Shown in pieces: positions 29,521-38,180 of a DNA stretch of 64,000 nt. The stretch lies in contig NZ_JAPEOK010000001.1 of the NCBI RefSeq assembly GCF_026341515.1, forward strand, positions 2,356,001 to 2,420,000. Reading direction: 5' to 3'. The translations under genes were made by a program, and so were the position numbers. This DNA comes from Streptomyces sp. NBC_00878. Lineage in GTDB: Bacteria; Actinomycetota; Actinomycetes; Streptomycetales; Streptomycetaceae. Every line of letters begins with the position of its first letter. The first letter of the stretch is position 1. Under the pieces are notes generated by a model, which saw only the letters and a program-made list of their open reading frames with translations, did not search any database and was not told the DNA's origin.

Positions 29521-29577
29521 GCCGGGCCTTTCGCCCCCGCCGGGCCTTTTTCGCCCCCGCCGCCCCTACCCTCCCCC
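29521..29577 (+). other. Left chromosomal flank with duplicated GCCGGGCCTTT...CGCCCCC unit
   Basis: Two adjacent ~20-bp copies directly after the pseudogene stop; GC-rich, probably remnants of its terminator. Outside the integrated element. Confidence 0.5.
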
Positions 29578-29612
29578 ACTCTCGGCTTGGAGACGCAGTC
29601 AAAGGGGAACCT
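29563..29612. other. attL, left attachment site
   Basis: Chromosomal half CCCCCACTCTCGGC, then TT (29587-29588), then element half 29589-29612. The element half pairs imperfectly with 38130-38153, as the two arms of one attP would. Joined to the right flank (CGCTCGAGCGGGGGG) the outer half makes a continuous Streptomyces intergenic sequence. Confidence 0.75.
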
Positions 29613-29710
29613 AGCTGTGACCAGCGGAAACGGCTGCTTCCGGGCACTCCATGGGGCCAGAAACCGTGACCGGACCGTGACTGTTCGGCGTGATCAACGC
29701 AGGCAACAAG

Positions 29711-29751
29711 ACGCCCCCAACTAGCCGCGCGCGCAGCGTAGTTGGGGGCGT
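29711..29751. terminator. 13-bp stem-loop terminator at left end of element
   Basis: Perfect arms 29711-29723 and 29739-29751 with a 15-base CG-rich loop. Closes the minus-strand micro-operon that ends at 29844 and insulates the element from the chromosome. Confidence 0.8.
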
Positions 29752-29843
29752 TGCCCGTACCTGACTGGGGGATCGGTACGGGGGTCATGCGTGCTGCCCT
29801 TGCCCCTCGCAGGGCCCCGGAGCGGCAGCCTTCGGGGGTGGTG

Positions 29844-30116
29844 CTAGGCGCCCTGGGCGTCGAGTTCCCGGTACGGGTTGCCTTCGGCGGGCGTGACGCG
29901 CCAGAAGGTTTCCACCATGGCCTTGAACTGACGATGCGTCGGATTCAGGCCCGTGTGTTTCAACGCCCAGACCTCAACAGGCAACCGCTCATTGTCAGTT
30001 GGCTGCGCTTGGGCACCGCATGTGATGCACTCGGCGGAGTAGATGCCCTGCGGGGCGCCCTCGCCGGTTTCCGCCCCGAGTGTCCACTCAGCGGCCCTGA
30101 TGATCGAACGGGTCAC
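29844..30116 (-). CDS. Small hypothetical protein with CxxC (DUF7848-like)
   Basis: 90 aa, GTG 30116 overlapping the upstream stop in GTGA. Contains CITCGAQAQP (possible half of a zinc site) and HRQFKAMVETFWRVTP. It resembles the small DUF7848-type proteins frequent in Streptomyces mobile elements; that label is from memory and tentative. Last gene of a three-gene coupled operon transcribed divergently from the XRE regulator. Confidence 0.65.
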   Translation of the reverse strand: MTRSIIRAAEWTLGAETGEGAPQGIYSAECITCGAQAQPTDNERLPVEVWALKHTGLNPTHRQFKAMVETFWRVTPAEGNPYRELDAQGA

Positions 30117-30322
30117 AGTTCCCCCCTGCTACGGCGGTTTACGTCGGCCAGCAGAGCGCGGAGCCTGTTCGCGCGCTCGTCACTGCCCTTGTGGCGCGGG
30201 CACGCGCACGGCGGGTATCCGCTGGAGAGATCCGGCACGTTCGACGGCGTCACGGTGTGCTCAGCGCGTACGAGGGTCCGGGCACCTGTCTGGGGGTCGA
30301 TCCGGTACACAGCGATGGTCAT
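30113..30322 (-). CDS. Small hypothetical protein, middle gene of element micro-operon
   Basis: 69 aa (MTIAVYRIDPQTGARTLVRA...CACPRHKGSDERANRLRALL). A CxCxxH cluster is seen; the rest is charged and helical at the C-terminus. ATG 30322 overlaps the upstream stop (TGATG). Not recognised. Tight coupling to both neighbours argues that the three proteins are made together. Confidence 0.6.
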   Translation of the reverse strand: MTIAVYRIDPQTGARTLVRAEHTVTPSNVPDLSSGYPPCACPRHKGSDERANRLRALLADVNRRSRGEL

Positions 30323-30630
30323 CACTGGGCATTCCCCCAAGGGGCGCCCTGGGCGCCTGTCCGGGCAGTCCTGGGCGCTTCGCCCAGCGCTGCCACATAG
30401 GGGCGGACGAGTGCGCCCGTGTGTTCCCACGGTGCGCACGGTTGCACAGGTGGGGTGTGCCGTTCCCTGCGCGTCCTGCGCGCCACGACGAGCCGCGCGC
30501 CGTGGACGTCCGGGGAGAACCGGTCACGGGGAGCTGCGGGCGGCGTAGCCGGTCGGCTGTGCCTGCCTGGGCTGCGCGGTCCGAACAGGGCCGCTCTCAC
30601 CCATTCGAGTGCGTGTGATAGGTAGTTCAT
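30322..30630 (-). CDS. Small hypothetical protein, first gene of element micro-operon
   Basis: 102 aa (MNYLSHALEWVRAALFG at the start, LVRPYVAALGEA near the end). It resembles a family of small Streptomyces proteins that end in an LVRPY-type motif and accompany mobile-element regulators. ATG 30630 with GAGGAGCAGG upstream. Unknown function; its promoter faces that of the XRE regulator. Confidence 0.6.
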   Translation of the reverse strand: MNYLSHALEWVRAALFGPRSPGRHSRPATPPAAPRDRFSPDVHGARLVVARRTRRERHTPPVQPCAPWEHTGALVRPYVAALGEAPRTARTGAQGAPWGNAQ

Positions 30631-30732
30631 TGGCTGCCTGCTCCTCAGGTGGTCCATGCCCCCGGACCGGTCGCACGGTTGCGGGGGTCTTGCGTCTGTC
30701 CACTCAACTGATTTGGTGAGCCGGTTGGGGAG

Positions 30733-30758
30733 TTGACCTGTGTTGACTAGGTGTTGAC
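30733..30758. promoter_or_regulatory. Three TTGAC repeats on one helix face
   Basis: TTGAC at 30733, 30743 and 30754, spaced 10 and 11 bp, in the 182-bp gap between the divergent micro-operon and XRE regulator. Helical spacing suggests cooperative binding by the regulator, or overlapping -35 boxes. Confidence 0.55.
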
Positions 30759-30812
30759 GGATACGCTGGACGCGAGGAACGCCGAGTCAACACCCCTGCC
30801 CAGGGAACGCCG

Positions 30813-32009
30813 ATGGATGATTTCCGCCAACGCGTGCGCGAGCTACTCGCGGAACGCAGTTTGAGCATGCGCGCTGCTGCGAAAGCCGCGCGTTACGACA
30901 TCGCTTACCTAAGCCGAGTACTGAACGGAAAGCAGTCGCCATCCGTTCAACTGGCTAAAGCCCTGGACGATTTACTAGGCGCCAAAGGTGAACTGGTCAC
31001 TCTAGCGAGTGGAAACCCGCTCGACACTCCTGCCGTCGAAACGGTCAACCGGGCCAGCATTACCGATTTCCTGCCGGATAACGACCCGTTGGCGCCATTG
31101 AAAGTCAGGCACGGGCGGCGCATTGGCGCGGGTGATGTGACCGACCTAGCCGGGCGCGTTCACGGGCTGCGCCTCGCCGATGACGTTCTAGCCGGTGGCG
31201 ACCTTATCCGCCCCGCAAAGAGAGAGCTGAAATCTGCCGTAAAGCTGTACCGCGAGGGAAGCCACACGGAGGAAATCGGGCGCGCACTGCTCTCCCAGAT
31301 TGGCGAATTGGCGCAGATCGCGGGATGGATTGCCAGTGATGCGGGGCTCCATGAGGAAGCGGAACGCATTTACAGACTGGGCATAAGTGCTGCCCAACAG
31401 GCAGGAGATAGAGCCCTAGTTGGCCATCTGGCCGGATCACTTGCCTACCAATACAGCAATACGGGCCATACAGGGGACGGCGTTCTACTCGCCCAGGCAG
31501 CCCTAGAAACGGCAGGCAAGGATGCGCCCAGGAAAGCGCGGGCGCTCTATCTTGACCGTGTCGCCTGGGCGCACACAAAGGCCAATGAGGCACAGCCTGC
31601 AATGCGTGCCCTGAGTGAGGCGTCCGCAGCCCTTGCCGAAGATAGCGAGGCGACAGGATCGCCCCAGTATCTCTATTGGGTCAATGCAGGCGAGTTGGAC
31701 GTCATGGAATCGCGCGTCTATACGGAGCTGAAACGCCCCCTGCGCGCGGTGCCGTTGTTGCGGGAAGTCCTAGCCCAATACGACGCTACGCACACGAGAG
31801 AGCTTGCTCTGTACCTCTCGTGGCTTGCCGTAGCTCTGGCAGACGCCAATGAGCCTGAGGAAGCGGCAGCAACGGCAAAGCGCGTCATCAGCCTTTCCGC
31901 AGACGTCGCGAGCGAGCGCACGGCGGAGCGCGTAAAGGTAGTTCTACACAGGCTTGAGGAATACCGCGACGTCCCAGAAGTGCGTGAAATCCTAGACGAC
32001 GCAGCCTAG
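30813..32009 (+). CDS. XRE-family regulator with TPR-like C-terminal domain; TTA codon
   Basis: 398 aa. N-terminal helix-turn-helix (residues ~1-60: SMRAAAKAARYDIAYLSRVLNGKQSP) and a long all-helical C-terminal part with TPR-like repeats (AERIYRLGISAAQQAGDRAL, LVGHLAGSLAYQYSNTGH, ALYLDRVAWAHTKANEAQ). Likely the switch regulator of the integrated element, perhaps sensing a peptide through the TPR domain. Codon 54 is TTA (30972-30974), the leucine codon read by the bldA tRNA in Streptomyces, so translation may depend on developmental stage. The gene runs opposite to the integrase, helicase and capsid genes. Confidence 0.88.
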   Translation: MDDFRQRVRELLAERSLSMRAAAKAARYDIAYLSRVLNGKQSPSVQLAKALDDLLGAKGELVTLASGNPLDTPAVETVNRASITDFLPDNDPLAPLKVRHGRRIGAGDVTDLAGRVHGLRLADDVLAGGDLIRPAKRELKSAVKLYREGSHTEEIGRALLSQIGELAQIAGWIASDAGLHEEAERIYRLGISAAQQAGDRALVGHLAGSLAYQYSNTGHTGDGVLLAQAALETAGKDAPRKARALYLDRVAWAHTKANEAQPAMRALSEASAALAEDSEATGSPQYLYWVNAGELDVMESRVYTELKRPLRAVPLLREVLAQYDATHTRELALYLSWLAVALADANEPEEAAATAKRVISLSADVASERTAERVKVVLHRLEEYRDVPEVREILDDAA

Positions 32010-32017
32010 AAATGCAG

Positions 32018-32068
32018 AATAGGCCCCGGTATCCGCCCCGCAGAAGCGAGGAGATACCGGGGCCTATT
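32018..32068. terminator. 16-bp perfect stem-loop between converging regulator and capsid genes
   Basis: Arms 32018-32033 and 32053-32068 are perfectly complementary with a 19-base loop. It serves both the regulator (ends 32009) and the capsid gene (ends 32084). Confidence 0.9.
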
Positions 32069-32083
32069 CATGGCCGAACAGGC

Positions 32084-33508
32084 CTAGAACGTCGGTGTCA
32101 CCAACCCCGTTCCGCCCACCTTTGCCATGGCGCCGGACGGGTACCGCTGGAATGTGTAGCCGAAGTACGCATAGGCCACGAGCAGCACGCCGAGGGATGC
32201 GGCGGCAGGCTGTTCCGCGCGAATGAACATGGGCGCGGCAGGATCTTCCCAGAGATGGCATTCATTGCGCGGCACCACGTAAATCTCATCCTCGGTGCCC
32301 CCACCGAGGTTCGTGGCAATGTTGTTGTCGATCACTACGAGAATGCCGGAAGAAAGCTTGGCACGAACCACCGGCCCGTATTCATTGGTGAGCGTCAGAC
32401 CACCGGAGTTGACCGGCATTCCGCTCGTGGACACGAACGGCCAGGTGGAGCCGACCTGTGACGAAAGCCAATTCCAGCGGCGGGAATGCATCACCGCATG
32501 CGTGGCGTACCCCATGTTCAACAGCGTGGCTTCGACAGTGGAAGCGGCACCCTGAATCTTCGGCCACAGCTCGGCAGCCGTAGGCGATGCGTCGGTATAG
32601 GCCGTGGCCGAAGCAACGTTCGTCAGACCCGTCGATGCCTGATTCAGGAGCGTCGAATCCAGCGTTGTTGCCACCCGGTTGAAAAGATCTTGCATGGTGA
32701 CGTCATCGATACCGGAGCCCCGCTCGATTGCCTGCCGAGAAACCGTCTGCTGGCCGGCCGCAGTCTGCACGGGAATCGAAAGCGGCGTGTCGTCCATGTC
32801 CTGTTCCGAAACCGCTGTGTTCTGTGATGTCTGGATTGCTGCGCTCGACGACGTGGTGATGCGGGAAAGCTCGATGGTCATACCCTGCGCGGGCAGCGGG
32901 TGAAGATTGCAGGCAGCGTCCGCGAACGGCCGTAGAGAGGTCGTGGCGGGGGCAAACTGTTCGGTCAGGTACTGCGGAACGGTAAGACCCGTGAACGCGC
33001 CCGTACCGACCGCACGGCTCAGGTACTGCCCGCGTTCGGTCTGCTCTTCCGCCATGTGCCGGGCGAGGCGTTCTTGCGCCCCAGGATCACCGAAGAGGAA
33101 CTGTCGAGAAATGTCACTCAGAAATGCTCGGCCGTTCGGGTCGTGGTCGGGCCGGTAGGTGCGCTCTTCCCGCCCGACACGCATTATCTGGTCATAGGCG
33201 AGCCTGCGCACGTTCGTGGGCGTGATCTGATTCGCCCTCTTGCCATACTCGATCTCTTCGATTTGCACGGCACGCAGCTGTTCAAGGTCGCGCCCAGCGT
33301 TACGGGCCTCGATCACCGAGGCATCTTTCGCTTCCATCAAACGCGTGACTTCCCGGTCCTCCTCCTGTGTGAGGTCGGAGCGGCCAGCACGCTGCGCGGA
33401 GTCGAGAATGGCATTGATCTGCTGCTGTGCAATGTCCTTGCTGCGACGCGCATTATCGCGCGCTGTTTCGACCTGGCTAATTCGGTCGGCAAGTGTGCGC
33501 GTAGTCAT
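32084..33508 (-). CDS. HK97-fold phage major capsid protein
   Basis: 474 aa. Residues ~1-105 are a charged coiled coil (ADRISQVETARDNARRSKD, EEDREVTRLMEAKDASVIEA) of the kind that serves as scaffold (delta domain) in HK97 capsids; after a linker the capsid core begins (GAFTGLTVPQYLTEQFAPATTSL) with the A-domain and terminal strands (SSGILVVIDNNIATN, LLVAYAYFGYTFQRYPSGAM). Normally cut by a prohead protease; none is encoded nearby. ATG 33508 follows GGGGG. No portal or terminase gene accompanies it, which is very unusual for a capsid gene. Confidence 0.9.
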   Translation of the reverse strand: MTTRTLADRISQVETARDNARRSKDIAQQQINAILDSAQRAGRSDLTQEEDREVTRLMEAKDASVIEARNAGRDLEQLRAVQIEEIEYGKRANQITPTNVRRLAYDQIMRVGREERTYRPDHDPNGRAFLSDISRQFLFGDPGAQERLARHMAEEQTERGQYLSRAVGTGAFTGLTVPQYLTEQFAPATTSLRPFADAACNLHPLPAQGMTIELSRITTSSSAAIQTSQNTAVSEQDMDDTPLSIPVQTAAGQQTVSRQAIERGSGIDDVTMQDLFNRVATTLDSTLLNQASTGLTNVASATAYTDASPTAAELWPKIQGAASTVEATLLNMGYATHAVMHSRRWNWLSSQVGSTWPFVSTSGMPVNSGGLTLTNEYGPVVRAKLSSGILVVIDNNIATNLGGGTEDEIYVVPRNECHLWEDPAAPMFIRAEQPAAASLGVLLVAYAYFGYTFQRYPSGAMAKVGGTGLVTPTF

Positions 33509-33729
33509 GGGAACCCCCAGGTTCAGTACACGCGGAAAGGGACGCGTGCCCGCTGCAAGGGGTCGGCCGTCGGAGCATCTGCCCGACAAGCCTGGACTCA
33601 CCACCCACCCGAAAGTCATCCGTTCCGGCGAGGGGCGCCCGTGGCACTTGGGAATCCGGCTGGACTGCGCTCCCCGGGGATATCTGCCCGGAAAGCACAG
33701 TCCATGTCTGGAACCGTATTCAGGGTATA

Positions 33730-33954
33730 TCAAAGGCCGGACATTTGTCTCTGCACCTCCGCCAGTGCCGCATCCCAATTCTCCACTGACCCGTTCTTGG
33801 TGGAGATCCCGTACTCATTCGCCCATGCCGCCAAGGCGAATATCAGCGGTAGCGGGTCGGAGTTGTCCACGATCACTGCGGCGCCTGCCTCGTCTCCGGT
33901 GAGGCAGGCACGGAGCAGAGCGGGGACGGTTGCGGGCTCAGGGGTCTTGTCCAT
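33730..33954 (-). CDS. Small hypothetical protein upstream of capsid gene
   Basis: 74 aa (MDKTPEPATVPALLRACLTG...PLIFALAAWANEYGISTKNG). A strong GAAGGAG lies before ATG 33954, so it is probably real. Mostly helical, acidic. It is the first gene of the capsid module; a 221-bp gap follows before the capsid start. Function unknown; a capsid-assembly or size-determining partner is possible but only by position. Confidence 0.65.
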   Translation of the reverse strand: MDKTPEPATVPALLRACLTGDEAGAAVIVDNSDPLPLIFALAAWANEYGISTKNGSVENWDAALAEVQRQMSGL

Positions 33955-34041
33955 GGCAACTCCTTCAAGATCGCGCCCAGGGATCTGGGCTCGGGGACTA
34001 TTTTTCGAGTTGGACGTGGGGCTGGAAAGGGCGCGCCTGCT

Positions 34042-34066
34042 AAAAAACGGCGGCGTTGCAAGCCGC
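34042..34066 (-). terminator. Intrinsic terminator with U-tract ending the replication module
   Basis: On the minus strand, stem GCGGC/GCCGC (34066-34062 with 34054-34050), 7-base loop, then CG and six T (34047-34042). Such U-tracts are uncommon in Streptomyces and fit a foreign origin. It stops transcripts coming from the helicase gene before the capsid genes. Confidence 0.75.
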
Positions 34067-34167
34067 GCGCTCGATGTTCCGCCCGTCCATGCTCGGTGGT
34101 CGCCCAGTGATTCAGGCGCATGTCTTTGCGATGCACCTTGTGCCTGCCTTGTGTCTGTCGCCTTGCG

Positions 34168-34352
34168 TAGCTATGCGGGGGTACTACGTACACCCCCGCA
34201 GCTATAGCTACACGATCAAGGTTTGCGATCAAGGAATAGCTACGAAAGCATTACGTGCCTGGTCAGAGGTAGTTACGAAAGCACTACGGGATAGCTACGG
34301 TAGTTACGGCCGATAGCTACGAAAGCATTACATGATCTTGTTTCGTAGCTAC
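34168..34352. other. Candidate replication origin with hairpin and iterons
   Basis: A 9-bp stem (34174-34182 with 34192-34200) flanked by TAGCTA motifs, followed by repeated 18-mers and an inverted copy (34341-34352). It lies directly downstream of the RepA-like ATPase gene and has lower G+C than its surroundings, as expected for an origin bound by its own initiator. Confidence 0.7.
34237..34331 (+). repeat. Iterons TAGYTACGAAAGCAYTAC
   Basis: Full 18-bp copies at 34237-34254, 34270-34287 (two changes) and 34314-34331; two tandem 9-mers TAGCTACGG and TAGTTACGG at 34292-34309 lie between. Start-to-start spacing is 33, 22, 9 and 13 bp. Confidence 0.9.
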
Positions 34353-34367
34353 CTGGTCGTTACGGGA

Positions 34368-35705
34368 TCAAGGCTCCTCTATGGATAGCTGGGCGGCGAT
34401 TTCTTCTCTCGCCGATGCCGCAGCGTTCGCGGCCAGAGCGTCCGCCTGCTGCTGTCCCTCGTACGTCACCTGATAGCGACCGGTATTAGGGACCTTCACG
34501 ATAAGGGCCTTACTTATGAGTCCCTTCATGTGTGTGGCCATTTTGGCGCGCTCATCTTTCTTGCCCAGGTGCTCGGCGACTCCCGTAGGAGAGGCGCCTA
34601 TCTCTCCGAACTCAGCGATGGCGCAAAGAGCCTCAGCTTGCTTACCGGTCACGATTATCTGCACTCTGACAGTCTCGGCCGTAAACGCGCCCTGCGTTCG
34701 CAGCGCCAAAGAGTCGCCAGTCTTTACAGCTTCTAGGGCGAGGTCTGGCGCTTCCACCATGTCTCTCTGGGCGAGGCTTTTAACGACGACTCCGCCGGCG
34801 CGTCGATCCCGCTTCACCTCAAACTCTGAGTCGATAGCTGCGAGGATTGCCGTTGCGCCCCTACCTCGCCCACCCTCGTTGCCAGAGTGGTGTACGAGCA
34901 TGACGGCTGCCTTCGTCCATTCCCTCAGCTTGTCCAGCCGGGCAACGATCTTTCCCATTTCACTGTTGCTGTTTTCCTCGTGTCCGACTGTGCAGCGCGC
35001 TTGCGTGTCGAAGATGACCAGGCCGTGTTCGCCTTGCCTCGCGTACGCGATGAGTTCGCGCATCTGGTCGTCGTCGCCGATCTGCACGGCTCTCGGATAG
35101 AACGTGACCCCTGTCATCTTCCGGTCGTTCATTTGCTCCCAGGCCCGCACGCGTGGCCTTACGCCTCGCGCCCCCTCGGCGACGACATAGAGGACGGGCA
35201 TCTCAGTGGTCCGATAACCGAACCATCGCTCACCCGTCCCTATAGCGGCAGCCATGGACAGTGCTATGAATGACTTGAGGCTTTTAGGTGGCCCGAATAT
35301 GCGAGACACGGTGTCCCGGTTGATAAACTCAGCAATCAAAGGCTCATGGGCATCGATGTTGTCAAGACTGTCTGCGCTTAGTGCGTCCGCTGCAAAGCGT
35401 GCGGCAAGTGAGGTTCTGCCTTCCTCCGATTCGAGGGCCGCCGAAAATTCCTCCTCCTTAATCTTGGCCGCTCGTTCTTTCGCACGGTCATAGCTCGCTA
35501 TCTCCTTTGCTTTGTCGTATTCGGCGGCATCCCGCCTGTGTGCCTCGATAATGGCCAGCGTCTTAGCGTCGACATCCGGGTCCGGGAGTTTGGTAGAGAG
35601 GGCGGCCACAATGCGCTGAGCATCATCGCTGAGACTCTCTAGCGGCACAGTCCCCGGATTGAGTAGCCACCACAGTGCGAGGCGCGCGTTAGGTTCTATC
35701 GTCAC
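34368..35705 (-). CDS. RepA/DnaB-like AAA ATPase (replicative helicase candidate)
   Basis: 445 aa. N-terminal ~130 residues are helical and charged; the RecA-like ATPase follows with Walker A FGPPKSLKSF, Walker B GLVIFDTQAR, and sensor segment VMLVHHSGNEGGRGRGATAIL with IDSEFEVKRD, the pattern of RSF1010 RepA-type helicases (AAA_25). The C-terminal ~90 residues look like a winged helix (ALCAIAEFGEIGASPTGVAEHLG), perhaps binding the adjacent iterons. GTG 35705 overlaps the upstream stop (GTGA). Likely drives autonomous replication after excision. Confidence 0.85.
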   Translation of the reverse strand: MTIEPNARLALWWLLNPGTVPLESLSDDAQRIVAALSTKLPDPDVDAKTLAIIEAHRRDAAEYDKAKEIASYDRAKERAAKIKEEEFSAALESEEGRTSLAARFAADALSADSLDNIDAHEPLIAEFINRDTVSRIFGPPKSLKSFIALSMAAAIGTGERWFGYRTTEMPVLYVVAEGARGVRPRVRAWEQMNDRKMTGVTFYPRAVQIGDDDQMRELIAYARQGEHGLVIFDTQARCTVGHEENSNSEMGKIVARLDKLREWTKAAVMLVHHSGNEGGRGRGATAILAAIDSEFEVKRDRRAGGVVVKSLAQRDMVEAPDLALEAVKTGDSLALRTQGAFTAETVRVQIIVTGKQAEALCAIAEFGEIGASPTGVAEHLGKKDERAKMATHMKGLISKALIVKVPNTGRYQVTYEGQQQADALAANAAASAREEIAAQLSIEEP

Positions 35706-35962
35706 TCGGCATCCTCGCTGCGGGCCTCTGCCGCTATCGCTGCCCTGATCGAATCGTGCCGAGAGCTGATCACTCCTCGGAGTACGGGGCATCCATTGTC
35801 GTGGCTGACGGTCATGTGCCAGACGCCTGATCCGTCGCGTGTCACTCCGCCAACGCGCGAATGGCAGTGACCGCATTTATAGCTTGCCGCGAATTGCTTC
35901 AGCTGTCGGGGCGCTACTGGGCGTTGCGTCCTACGCTTTCGGGGTTTCGGGTTTCCGGGCAT
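35702..35962 (-). CDS. Small zinc-finger-like protein
   Basis: 86 aa, basic N-terminus (KPRKRRTQRP) then CGHCHSRVGG and, ~25 residues on, HMTVSHDNGCPVLRG, enough Cys/His for one zinc site. ATG 35962 preceded by GGAG. Coupled to the helicase gene by a 4-bp overlap, so likely a replication or excision accessory protein; possible DNA binding is inferred from charge and zinc ligands. Confidence 0.7.
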   Translation of the reverse strand: MPGNPKPRKRRTQRPVAPRQLKQFAASYKCGHCHSRVGGVTRDGSGVWHMTVSHDNGCPVLRGVISSRHDSIRAAIAAEARSEDAE

Positions 35963-36159
35963 ACGTCATCACTCCATAGGTAGTTTTCTGATAATTGCGT
36001 CTCCGCTACCTGCGCCCAACGCTCTTCCCCATACGGGGGTTCATCGCGTCGCCATGTCCTAGCGGATGTACCGGTGACAATCTGGCCGCGCGCCTTCCGG
36101 CATTGCGCGACGGTTCTTCCAAACCCGGCCTGAACTATTGGGTTGTTGAGCGCAGGGGA

Positions 36160-36366
36160 TTACTCGACAGGGGGCAACAGGGCGCGAAGGCGCTCGACTT
36201 GGTCGGGAGTGAGGGGCGGGGCGCTTTCGATGTCGCGCCTGATGCGCTCTGCAAGGGCAAGTGCCCTCAACTCGCGTTGTTCTTCGGTGACATCAGCGTC
36301 AGGGTTCTGTCGCCTGCGCCCAGCGATGCGGGCGCGCAGCCTGGCAGCGTCAGGGGAAATAGGCAT
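36160..36366 (-). CDS. Small helical protein of element
   Basis: 68 aa (MPISPDAARLRARIAGRRRQ...LTPDQVERLRALLPPVE). Highly charged and helical; members of this small family are common in Streptomyces integrative elements. ATG 36366 with CGGAG upstream. A position between integrase and replication genes would suit an excisionase-like accessory factor, but no winged-helix motif is evident. Function unknown. Confidence 0.65.
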   Translation of the reverse strand: MPISPDAARLRARIAGRRRQNPDADVTEEQRELRALALAERIRRDIESAPPLTPDQVERLRALLPPVE

Positions 36367-36560
36367 AGGAGGACTCCGGGTAGGTGTCCGGGCGGTTCCC
36401 GGACTGTTTAGGAGTCCTCACGCTGCTGAATCGGAGTGGTCTCTCTCCGTGGCCCCGTAGGGTGAGCAACCGGGGCAAGCTCAAGCTTTACCCCGCAGGG
36501 CATCTCAAGGCAAGAAAGCACATTCGTGTAATTCGCTTGTACGGTCCCAGGAACGCCGAA

Positions 36561-36592
36561 GCGCCCCCGTCCCAGGGAAGGGACAGGGGCGC
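36561..36592 (-). terminator. Terminator of the integrase gene
   Basis: Arms 36561-36573 and 36580-36592 pair at 12 of 13 positions with a 6-base loop, 14 bases past the integrase stop at 36606. Confidence 0.8.
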
Positions 36593-36605
36593 CGGTGGTG
36601 GGCCG

Positions 36606-38108
36606 TTACGCGGCCGCACAGCCCTTGCAGTCGGCCTTGTGCATGTGGGCGCGGTCGGCAGGGTCTACGCGGCTCCCCGGACCAACCGGCATGATCCGCA
36701 CCTCGCCCAGCACCGAGGGAGCGAGCACCATGCGCGCGACGGCACGCCGTGCCGCCACGGGGGCAGCGGCCCAACGCTTCGCCACGTCCTTACCGGGCGT
36801 GATCATGTCGGCGAGTTGCGCGGGCGCCCTCAGCTTCTGTTCCTCGGCTTGCAGGCGCGCGATGTCCTCGCTGAGAGAGTCGACCAGTCGGCCCATGGCG
36901 AGCGCCTCGCCCACCGTGGCCGTCTTCGTGCCCTCCGCCTCGCGTCGCTCGCCCTCCAGCCGCTCTCTCTCGGTGCGGATCTCCTCGGCGCGCGCCTCAT
37001 CCTCCGGGGCAGCCGTAAACGCCTCATACACCCGGCTCTCGTCGGCCAGGAACGCCAGGATCACGCCCGGCTGCTCCTCGGTGCCGATCAGGAACTCATC
37101 AATGCGCGCACGGGGCACGCGGACGCATCCGTGTTCCCGGCACTCGTAGCAGGGGGCGCCCTTGACCTGTGCGGCGCGCATGGGGCCGCCGCACTTGCCG
37201 CACCGGATGATCCGGGTCAGGTCGTGCTGTGCGCGGCCGTCCGGGCGCCGCTTCTGTGCCTGCGTCCGGGTGTTGAGCATGCGCACAACCGCCCGGTAGT
37301 CGGCCTCTGACACAAGCCCCTTCCATGTGCCGGGGCGCTCCGTCCCGTGGTGCGAGCGGATACCGGCATACGCAGGCTTGACGACCATGCTCCGCAGGTG
37401 CTGCGGCACGAACGGGCGCCCCGAGCCGTTGACGATCCCGCGCGCCTTGAAGTCACGTGCGATGGCGCCCATGGCGTGCCCCGCCTTGATCCGCCGGAAC
37501 AGTTCGCGGATCACGTCGGCCTTGCTCAGTCCCGGAATGGCTTCGGTGGTGTCGGCCACCCAGTCCGCGAGCTTGCCCGTGCGGGTGTCGTGTACGGGCA
37601 CGTAGCCGTAGGGGGCGCGGCCGGTCGGACGGCCGTCGGCGGCGTTCGAGGCGGCATTGCGTGCGGTGCGGGTGTGCACCTTGTACGACTCGTACTGAGA
37701 GTCCACGGCGTCTTCCTGCAAGGTGCGGACATCGCGGCCGTTGCGGGGGTCGTAGGTGCGTCCATGGCTGGTCACATGGATGAGCTTGCCCTGTTCCTCG
37801 CACAGCTCGATGAGGGACGCCCATTCCGAGACCTTGCGGCTTCCACGCGACGACTCCCAGATGATCAGAACGTCGTCGGTGAAGGCGCCGGTCTTCAGGT
37901 CCTTGACCAGCCTCACGAAGTCACCGCGCTTCTTCCGGCCGTACTTGCTGGCCGATATGCCGTCGTCGATGTACGGGGCAGCGCTGATCACGATGCGGTG
38001 CGTCTCAGCGCTGCGGATGTTGTCGGCGTGCTGCTCGTCGCAGCTCTGCCCCTTCTTCTTGCTGACCCGGAGGTATTCGCGGCCGGTGATCTGCTGTGAT
38101 GTCGTCAT
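36606..38108 (-). CDS. int: Large serine recombinase (integrase)
   Basis: 500 aa. Resolvase-type catalytic domain with the nucleophile Ser in REYLRVSKKKGQS near residue 16 and conserved Arg in IIWESSRGSRKVSEW; recombinase domain (GRAPYGYVP, IRELFRRIKAGHAMGAIARDF, VVKPAYAGIRSH); zinc ribbon CGKCGGPM...CYECREHGC; and a coiled coil (RAEEIRTERERLEGERREAEG). Large serine integrases catalyse attP x attB recombination one way and need a directionality factor for excision. The start lies 45 bp from the attR core, the normal int-attP layout. Confidence 0.95.
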   Translation of the reverse strand: MTTSQQITGREYLRVSKKKGQSCDEQHADNIRSAETHRIVISAAPYIDDGISASKYGRKKRGDFVRLVKDLKTGAFTDDVLIIWESSRGSRKVSEWASLIELCEEQGKLIHVTSHGRTYDPRNGRDVRTLQEDAVDSQYESYKVHTRTARNAASNAADGRPTGRAPYGYVPVHDTRTGKLADWVADTTEAIPGLSKADVIRELFRRIKAGHAMGAIARDFKARGIVNGSGRPFVPQHLRSMVVKPAYAGIRSHHGTERPGTWKGLVSEADYRAVVRMLNTRTQAQKRRPDGRAQHDLTRIIRCGKCGGPMRAAQVKGAPCYECREHGCVRVPRARIDEFLIGTEEQPGVILAFLADESRVYEAFTAAPEDEARAEEIRTERERLEGERREAEGTKTATVGEALAMGRLVDSLSEDIARLQAEEQKLRAPAQLADMITPGKDVAKRWAAAPVAARRAVARMVLAPSVLGEVRIMPVGPGSRVDPADRAHMHKADCKGCAAA

Positions 38109-38129
38109 GTCTCACAGCATGCGCCGCAG

Positions 38130-38180
38130 AGGTCCCCTTAAGGAAGTGTCCCCTTCGCTCGAGCGGGGGGACCCCCATCG
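38130..38180. other. attR, right attachment site
   Basis: Element half 38130-38153, TT at 38154-38155, then chromosomal half CGCTCGAGCGGGGGGACCCC. The two element halves (here and 29589-29612) match as inverted repeats at 15 of 24 positions around the central TT. Confidence 0.75.

Follow-up and report, generated by a model that had tools for sequence, protein, structure and literature searches.

Why would a compact integrative element carry a full-length phage capsid gene and no other recognisable virion gene? The question is raised by an 8567-bp element in the genome of Streptomyces sp. NBC_00878, which lies within a 64,000-nt stretch of that genome (contig positions 2356001-2420000; hereafter the window, to which all other coordinates refer). 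The element encodes a serine integrase, a RepA-like replication ATPase and an HK97-type major capsid protein (MCP), the last being the sole structural gene found in it. Judged from its sequence, it is probably a mobile phage satellite that supplies its own capsid and would borrow portal, large terminase and tail from a helper phage. This reading is preferred because the element has precise ends, possesses integrase and replication genes, keeps its MCP under strong purifying selection across differing backbones, and contains no other virion gene that was found.

Boundaries and gene content of the element

The preliminary description of this DNA had proposed an 8.6-kb element with precise ends, and the boundaries (29587-38153) proved exact to the base, the dispersed host repeat being rejoined across them. 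The host sequence CCCCCACTCTCGGCTT precedes the element and TTCGCTCGAGCGGGGGG comes after it, with a TT core splitting the repeat in two. Joining the flanks across TT gives a 45-nt string that is found exactly at L139, another locus in the same genome (L and G handles denote loci and genomes, respectively), and L144 holds a comparable unbroken repeat. The GC content is 0.63 in the element and 0.715 and 0.711 in the adjoining 10 kb on either side. A related element in Streptomyces sp. MNU76 (L105), with an integrase 90% identical to that of the window, occupies the same motif within an apparent P-type ATPase gene (read from the map). Because the flanks rejoin the repeat and L105 sits in the same motif, the window-type integrase is considered to use this dispersed repeat. 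The 18-nt repeat centre has 135 copies (at most two mismatches) in the source genome, and a reversed control pattern has none; a multi-copy repeat of this kind is an unusual attachment site for a serine integrase. A search for an empty site in a syntenic relative was negative: the single close right flank checked (G032) has an unrelated left neighbour. The nearest named relatives of the element are from Streptomyces. Its features are as follows.

29573-29588, plus strand: left att half, the host-repeat end CCCCCACTCTCGGCTT with core TT at 29587-29588
29587-38153, no strand: integrated element, 8567 bp with the TT core counted once (joined flanks, GC, L105 in the same motif)
29844-30116, minus strand: DUF7848 protein (PF25232, 5.8e-26)
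30113-30325, minus strand: s70, small protein
30322-30630, minus strand: s102, small open reading frame (ORF) divergent from the regulator, no family
30813-32009, plus strand: XRE-TPR regulator (HTH_31, 3.3e-9; PHROG 10886 'transcriptional regulator', 6.4e-51)
32084-33508, minus strand: HK97-type MCP, 474 aa (PHROG 2263 'major head protein', 2.2e-45, residues 41-473)
33509-33729, minus strand: s74-MCP intergenic stretch (81% mean column identity, four elements)
33730-33954, minus strand: s74, small protein preceding the MCP in each of the four family elements read
34236-34366, no strand: iterons, four 22-nt direct repeats beside repA (repeat search with Markov control)
34368-35705, minus strand: RepA-like AAA_25 replication ATPase, 445 aa, GTG start (PF13481, 1e-34; PHROG 906 DNA polymerase/primase, 7.8e-47)
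35702-35962, minus strand: s86, small protein (44-51% identical in L103, L104, L105, L215 and L220)
36160-36366, minus strand: s68, small conserved protein (91% identical in L105, 64% in L215)
36606-38108, minus strand: large serine integrase, 500 aa (PF00239, 6.5e-17; PF07508, 1.4e-10; PHROG 95)
38154-38170, plus strand: right att half, core TT at 38154-38155, then CGCTCGAGCGGGGGG

Read from right to left, the gene order is serine integrase, s68, s86, RepA-like ATPase, iterons, s74 and MCP; left of the MCP follow the XRE-TPR regulator on the opposite strand and then s102, s70 and the DUF7848 protein. The integrase, the ATPase with its iterons, the regulator and the small proteins all lie where they had first been described, the first three being recognised by Pfam, PHROG and the repeat search. 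The full-length HK97-type capsid protein was likewise recognised, by PHROG; no Pfam capsid model matched it at E 0.1 or better, and its profile had no match among the PDB sequences. The claim that terminase, portal, protease, tail and FtsK genes are lacking also stood, as none was found in Pfam and PHROG scans of the window proteins. A tblastn of the window with terminase, portal and protease queries from two complete prophages, plus a pair of tail proteins from one of these, gave no match, and the same terminase, portal and protease queries do recover those genes in sister loci.

The element family and its capsid relatives

By comparison of gene orders, the window element is a member of its own conserved family and not a one-off deletion, because the order integrase, small protein, s86, Rep, s74, MCP and regulator recurs while the modules change. 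Three more elements, found in two other Streptomyces (L103 and L105 in sp. MNU76, L104 in S. bicolor), keep this order with integrase, Rep and regulator exchanged, which is the compact arrangement that the preliminary description had proposed to seek in other genomes. In addition to its integrase, L105 shares with the window s68 (91%), s86 (47%), s74 (91%), MCP (82%), s70 (73%) and DUF7848 (87%), and its Rep resembles the window Rep in the first part only (59% over 83 residues). At the second site in MNU76, L103 has a serine integrase of 25% identity, s86 of 51%, Rep of 39% over 267 residues, s74 of 80%, MCP of 88%, s70 of 75% and DUF7848 of 90%. The corresponding values for L104 are 27% (integrase), 51% (s86), 77% (RepA), 86% (s74), 84% (MCP) and 59% over 46 residues (s70), with no DUF7848 match, and its integrase is 89% identical to that of L103. 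The place of the regulator is filled in all three by other helix-turn-helix (HTH)- or TPR-type regulators, that of L105 being an HTH type. A truncated relative is present in G285, and an additional sample of relatives' genomes gave no further close member. MNU76 carries two distinct capsid elements (L103, L105) at two sites with differing integrases and regulators, as if they were separate immunity groups.

A search of 5.8 billion proteins gave ten MCP clusters at 77-100% identity to the window MCP and the next at 64%, among the matches listed; the MCPs of complete prophages are about 60% identical. In an 80-row tree, the element MCPs, from the ten clusters and the three loci, group as a single clade (support 99/98), for which genomic context was read for four members only. 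This clade stands beside, not inside, the sampled complete-prophage MCPs, which counts against the concern, raised in the preliminary description, that homologues might always be found within complete prophages. According to pairwise NG86 estimates, several of them from pairs with dS near 1, MCP dN/dS is 0.08-0.14 among the window, L103, L104 and L105, lower than in the one pair compared for each of integrase (0.18), Rep (0.19) and s74 (0.20); other element MCP pairs indicated purifying selection of varied degree (0.16, 0.15, 0.45 and 0.47).

Among 21 MCP loci on genome contigs, 17 have portal and protease genes, three (L103-L105) have no head gene and one (L123) is cut by a contig end. The 392 genomes of the genus contain 22 MCP loci (21 genomes matched), with portal and/or protease matches within 1.5 kb in 17; the five exceptions are L013, L016, L017, the remnant in G285 and the window itself. 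In IMG/VR, 94 loci encode an MCP relative and 80 were kept, 74 of which match terminase, portal or protease; five of the remainder start at the MCP, and L027 has no head-gene match in 2.9 kb upstream. This 4.6-kb IMG/VR sequence holds a 641-aa ATPase of the L177-L180 type, a 143-aa ORF and an MCP with 61% identity to that of the window, and its ATPase has no IMG/VR match beyond L027 itself. Only distant MCPs were found in the phage collection (at most about 32%, best 40 of 57 records) and in the plasmid collection (at most 52.5%).

Within the MCP, residues 346-395 are 42% identical between element and prophage types, and the rest of the mature part 74%, whereas the phage-to-phage control (10 of the 12 phage-B loci) gave 51% versus 65% elsewhere. 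The divergence of these residues offers a weak hint of changed assembly.

Capsid exchange and a wider class in Streptomyces

Comparison of loci with different integrases and replication genes indicates that capsid genes are swapped between element backbones. L215 shares with the window its integrase (49%), s68 (64%) and Rep (29%), but its MCP has no significant similarity to the window MCP and is 73% identical to that of L216. The PrimPol and DUF3987 proteins of L216 are in turn 85% and 84% identical to those of L175, although the two MCPs are only weakly similar (32% over 112 residues). In L220, relatives of s86 (44%) and s74 (42%) stand beside a different MCP and a tyrosine integrase. In a 58-row MCP tree (22 rows labelled element, among them L177 and L027, and 36 phage), the element label needs seven changes, the minimum forced by supported branches; several branches of this tree are long, so that exact placings are unsure, and it omits L207 and L208 (more than 700 aa) as well as L200, L203 and L204 (cut by a contig end, or duplicating L215 and L216). 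Such swaps suggest repeated capture and exchange of one useful gene, and are not predicted by random prophage decay.

L013, L016 and L017 were the entry points to a wider element class. L175 (G267) spans 8.8 kb, bounded by 44-bp tRNA-Ala repeats, with a tyrosine integrase, an XRE-type ORF, an excisionase-like HTH protein, PrimPol, DUF3987, an MCP (PF05065, 4.1e-22) and a GntR-type ORF. Starting from the L027 ATPase, a further element was reached in G069 (L179/L181). It is 15.2 kb long and flanked by 49-bp tRNA-Thr repeats, and its head genes are a small terminase (PF05119, 1.1e-14) and an MCP (PF05065, 3.2e-37). L177 has an integrase, a PrimPol-type ORF, an ATPase and an MCP and is ambiguous because FtsK-type genes adjoin (PF01580, 5e-4); L176 is not capsid-only, since a tape measure gene is also present, and neither is counted among the elements below.

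PF05065, a model that the window-type MCP escapes, was surveyed in 179 genomes of the genus Streptomyces, one per species, and detected 78 loci in 58 genomes. A PF04860 portal lies within 30 kb of 39 loci and none that near to the other 39, which were sorted by reading of gene maps with a Pfam check, genes being taken from a home-made ORF caller. These 39 comprise 15 compact elements, one degraded element (L232), one capsid fragment (L242) and 22 others, namely phages with another portal type or contig-cut phages. The 15 compact elements, in which no further head or tail gene was read besides integrase and MCP, amount to 15 of the 78 loci and occur in 13 genomes (L181, L215-L221, L224, L226, L227, L230, L231, L241, L243); L215 and L219 end near contig ends, and L226 has its recombinase divided between two ORFs. 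Nine of them (L181, L215-L217, L219-L221, L224, L227) possess a recognised replication gene or homologue, and that of L230 is assigned by position and a short 53% match to L224 only. Bounding direct repeats were found in five of nine loci tried: L217 (14.7 kb, 45-bp tRNA-Arg repeats), L220 (10.0 kb, 22 bp), L224 (10.9 kb, 89 bp, 91%), L230 (10.3 kb, 19 bp) and L221 (10.3 kb, 16 bp). They were not found for L215, L216, L219 and L227, nor for L176 and L177.

The non-capsid proteins (138 small and 41 large) of 19 elements, i.e., the 15 together with L175, L103, L104 and L105, were compared with Pfam; the check left out the L105 integrase and those small ORFs that are shorter than 60 aa (15 of 153), and the L103 and L104 integrases fell outside its bounds. 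At 1e-5, 23 families were matched by the small and 16 by the large proteins, among them integrase, replication, HTH, GntR, HNH and DUF families. Two small terminases also scored, but neither a large terminase nor any portal, separate protease, tail, lysis or FtsK family did. In the serine-integrase-type elements L241 (7427-8824) and L243 (7847-9391), a prohead protease fused to the MCP is the only head gene. L181 and L227 combine a small terminase and MCP with membrane-type ORFs resembling those of actinomycete integrative and conjugative elements (AICEs), with no FtsK family.

A control for portal without capsid revealed no integrase-Rep-portal element in the gene maps of 12 loci, and is weak because only nine of their proteins were scanned. 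Portal-like proteins matching PF04860, with no PF05065 capsid within 20 kb, are encoded at L253 (802 aa), L262 (823 aa), L255 and L256 (both shorter), with an ABC transporter near L253 and a radical-SAM gene near L255.

Taken as a class, we lean slightly towards a large and polyphyletic set of capsid-bearing integrative elements in Streptomyces (about 9-15 kb where ends were found), with serine- or tyrosine-integrase backbones, several with AICE-like replication and none with FtsK, which would repeatedly capture and exchange MCP genes, sometimes with a small terminase or a protease fusion. They might spread as satellites whose own shell is matched to a helper, the capsid gene setting which helpers are usable.

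Readings of the element, known systems and accessory features

If the element is a satellite, infection by a helper phage would relieve the XRE-type regulator, the serine integrase would excise the element, and RepA would replicate it from the iterons. The element MCP would join head assembly, alone or mixed with helper MCP, giving heads fit for an 8.6-kb genome, and helper portal, protease, large terminase and tail would complete the particle. On entry, the integrase would insert the element at one of the roughly one hundred copies of the host repeat. Damage to the helper, and hence protection of the host, might be a by-product.

The closest precedent is Ccm of SaPIbov5, a Staphylococcus aureus pathogenicity island (SaPI). 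According to excerpts of the report on it (PMC8569155), Ccm occupies the pentamer positions and redirects assembly from prolate helper heads to small isometric ones, is 24% identical to the helper capsid protein and cannot form shells alone, and in the cos-type SaPIs with Ccm the other structural proteins are supplied by the helper. The window element resembles these islands as an integrative satellite whose head gene is a single capsid-protein homologue, and differs from them, as excerpted, in its serine integrase, AAA_25 Rep and XRE-TPR regulator, its full-length MCP and its Streptomyces host. The satellite logic of the preliminary description stands as the best reading of the evidence, but the whole shell of its own that was credited to the element is not to be presumed, given the behaviour of Ccm. 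Given its full length and its identity of about 60% to prophage MCPs, the window MCP may form whole shells.

Several results weigh against the satellite reading. A scan for PF04860 portals came up empty in the source genome, in G285 and in the genomes that carry L103/L105 and L104, and this model does detect the portal of a sister-type prophage (1.2e-46), so that a helper of sister type would have to arrive from outside. No cos or pac site was identified. In IMG/VR, a search with Rep and integrase, which reaches close relatives only, gave no match and no MCP exceeded 64% identity among the matches listed; there is therefore no virion evidence. No replication gene was recognised in five of the 15 elements of the survey (L218, L226, L231, L241, L243), and self-replication is therefore not general to the class. 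The excess divergence at MCP residues 346-395 is modest relative to the phage-to-phage control. Divergence of the MCP N-terminal domain, considered as a sign of size adaptation, was rejected, as it is not element-specific in that control.

An unlikely alternative, though the one that survives best, is that the MCP mainly poisons the head assembly of incoming phages and is kept for host protection, the element moving otherwise. The backbones of some relatives look AICE-like, and no sister-type helper prophage was detected in four carriers. Moreover, in excerpts of the respective reports, Ccm works against its helper (PMC8569155), and Rcm, which is no capsid homologue, also interferes with its helper (PMC12409344). 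However, four elements combine the MCP with a small terminase or a fused prohead protease, a sign of packaging and not only of poisoning. Both readings are compatible with each other.

It is improbable that the elements are prophage remnants, in which independent deletions left integrase, replication and capsid genes by chance and the ORFs merely persist. Sister MCPs do lie in complete prophages, and the Rep of one such prophage (L106) shows 45% identity over 314 residues; the truncated relative in G285 and the degraded element L232 also speak for this reading. Decay fits poorly, however, with one order across several genomes with exchanged modules, with precise ends, with two different copies in the single strain MNU76, with the low dN/dS of the MCP, with capsids swapped between backbones, and with retention of the MCP in 19 scanned elements, none of which showed a portal, large terminase or tail family. 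Encapsulins have the HK97 fold, but an encapsulin-like shell for cargo or host, used without a phage, is very improbable: it would suit the lack of any other virion gene found in the element, yet the MCP keeps the length of prophage MCPs, their identity of about 60% and the N-terminal domain, and is carried on integrative elements and swapped between backbones.

The satellite reading can be set against known systems. Like phage satellites generally, the window element is integrative, has an incomplete virion gene set and belongs to a conserved family apart from any one prophage; unlike a complete prophage, it has no terminase, portal, protease or tail gene that was found. Phage-inducible chromosomal islands (PICIs) have a tyrosine integrase, Stl/AlpA-type regulation and a PICI primase-Rep. 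With its serine integrase and AAA_25 Rep, the window element is not a PICI by layout, and would work like one. AICEs such as pSAM2 carry an integrase, a Rep or PrimPol, GntR-type parts and an FtsK/TraB-type transfer protein, of which the last has no family match in the window proteins or the 19 scanned elements. L178 and L180 look like AICEs, and several capsid elements share their replication module. P4-type satellites are known for the P4 alpha primase, Sid and Psu; no such name occurs among the Pfam and PHROG matches, which included no dedicated search with P4 proteins. Tycheposons and virion-encapsidated integrative mobile elements (VEIMEs) are integrative elements carried in virions, and have different hosts and backbones from the window element. 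Both are named for marine bacteria in excerpts of PMC10803314.

The gene set had been called different from the PICI types. Its layout does differ in integrase and Rep, but it is less foreign than claimed, because SaPIbov5 likewise carries one capsid-protein homologue. Capsid-forming PICIs (cf-PICIs), as excerpted from PMC10690885, encode their own capsid, protease, portal, connectors and both terminases and need helper tails. The window element likewise encodes its own capsid protein, but has the MCP only, with no portal, protease or terminase found, to which four relatives add a small terminase or fused protease. The same source describes MulchRoom and MiniFlayer, Streptomyces satellite phages with MCP, both terminases, portal and scaffold and no primase; they share with our element the host genus and an encoded MCP, and the window element, with a replication gene and MCP, is their converse.

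In the open literature searched, and as far as its excerpts extend, a lone capsid homologue in a satellite is described only for cos-type SaPIs. No capsid-only element in Streptomyces appeared in titles and abstract openings of open-licence literature, subscription papers and most preprints being outside this scope. If the satellite reading is true, the lone-capsid strategy would have been reached many times in one antibiotic-producer genus, with unrelated backbones passing the capsid gene among them; a link would arise between AICE-like integrative elements and phage satellites, which are usually treated separately; and small particles would be expected in Streptomyces lysates. An actinobacterial prophage survey, in its excerpts, scores a prophage as intact once an integrase is joined by any single structural domain, which may be the capsid, and notes that actinobacterial elements below 15 kb could be satellites (PMC10023795). 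The finding bears on surveys that use such a rule, and the paired element and prophage MCPs offer a direct route to asking what determines capsid size.

Some accessory features of the element deserve mention. The best iteron family has four members, whereas 100 first-order Markov resamplings gave 1.95 on average and three at most. A window-like iteron unit was not found in L103, L105 or L215, and a related unit occurs in L104, whose RepA is the 77% identical one. Neither s68 nor s86 has a family match in Pfam or PHROG, and s86 shows a zinc-type CxxC...H..GCP pattern (spotted by eye). The conserved stretch at 33509-33729 is possibly a leader RNA or a packaging site. The s74 protein next to it was found in 15 clusters in the protein search, and its AlphaFold2 model has four helices with a mean pLDDT of 93.

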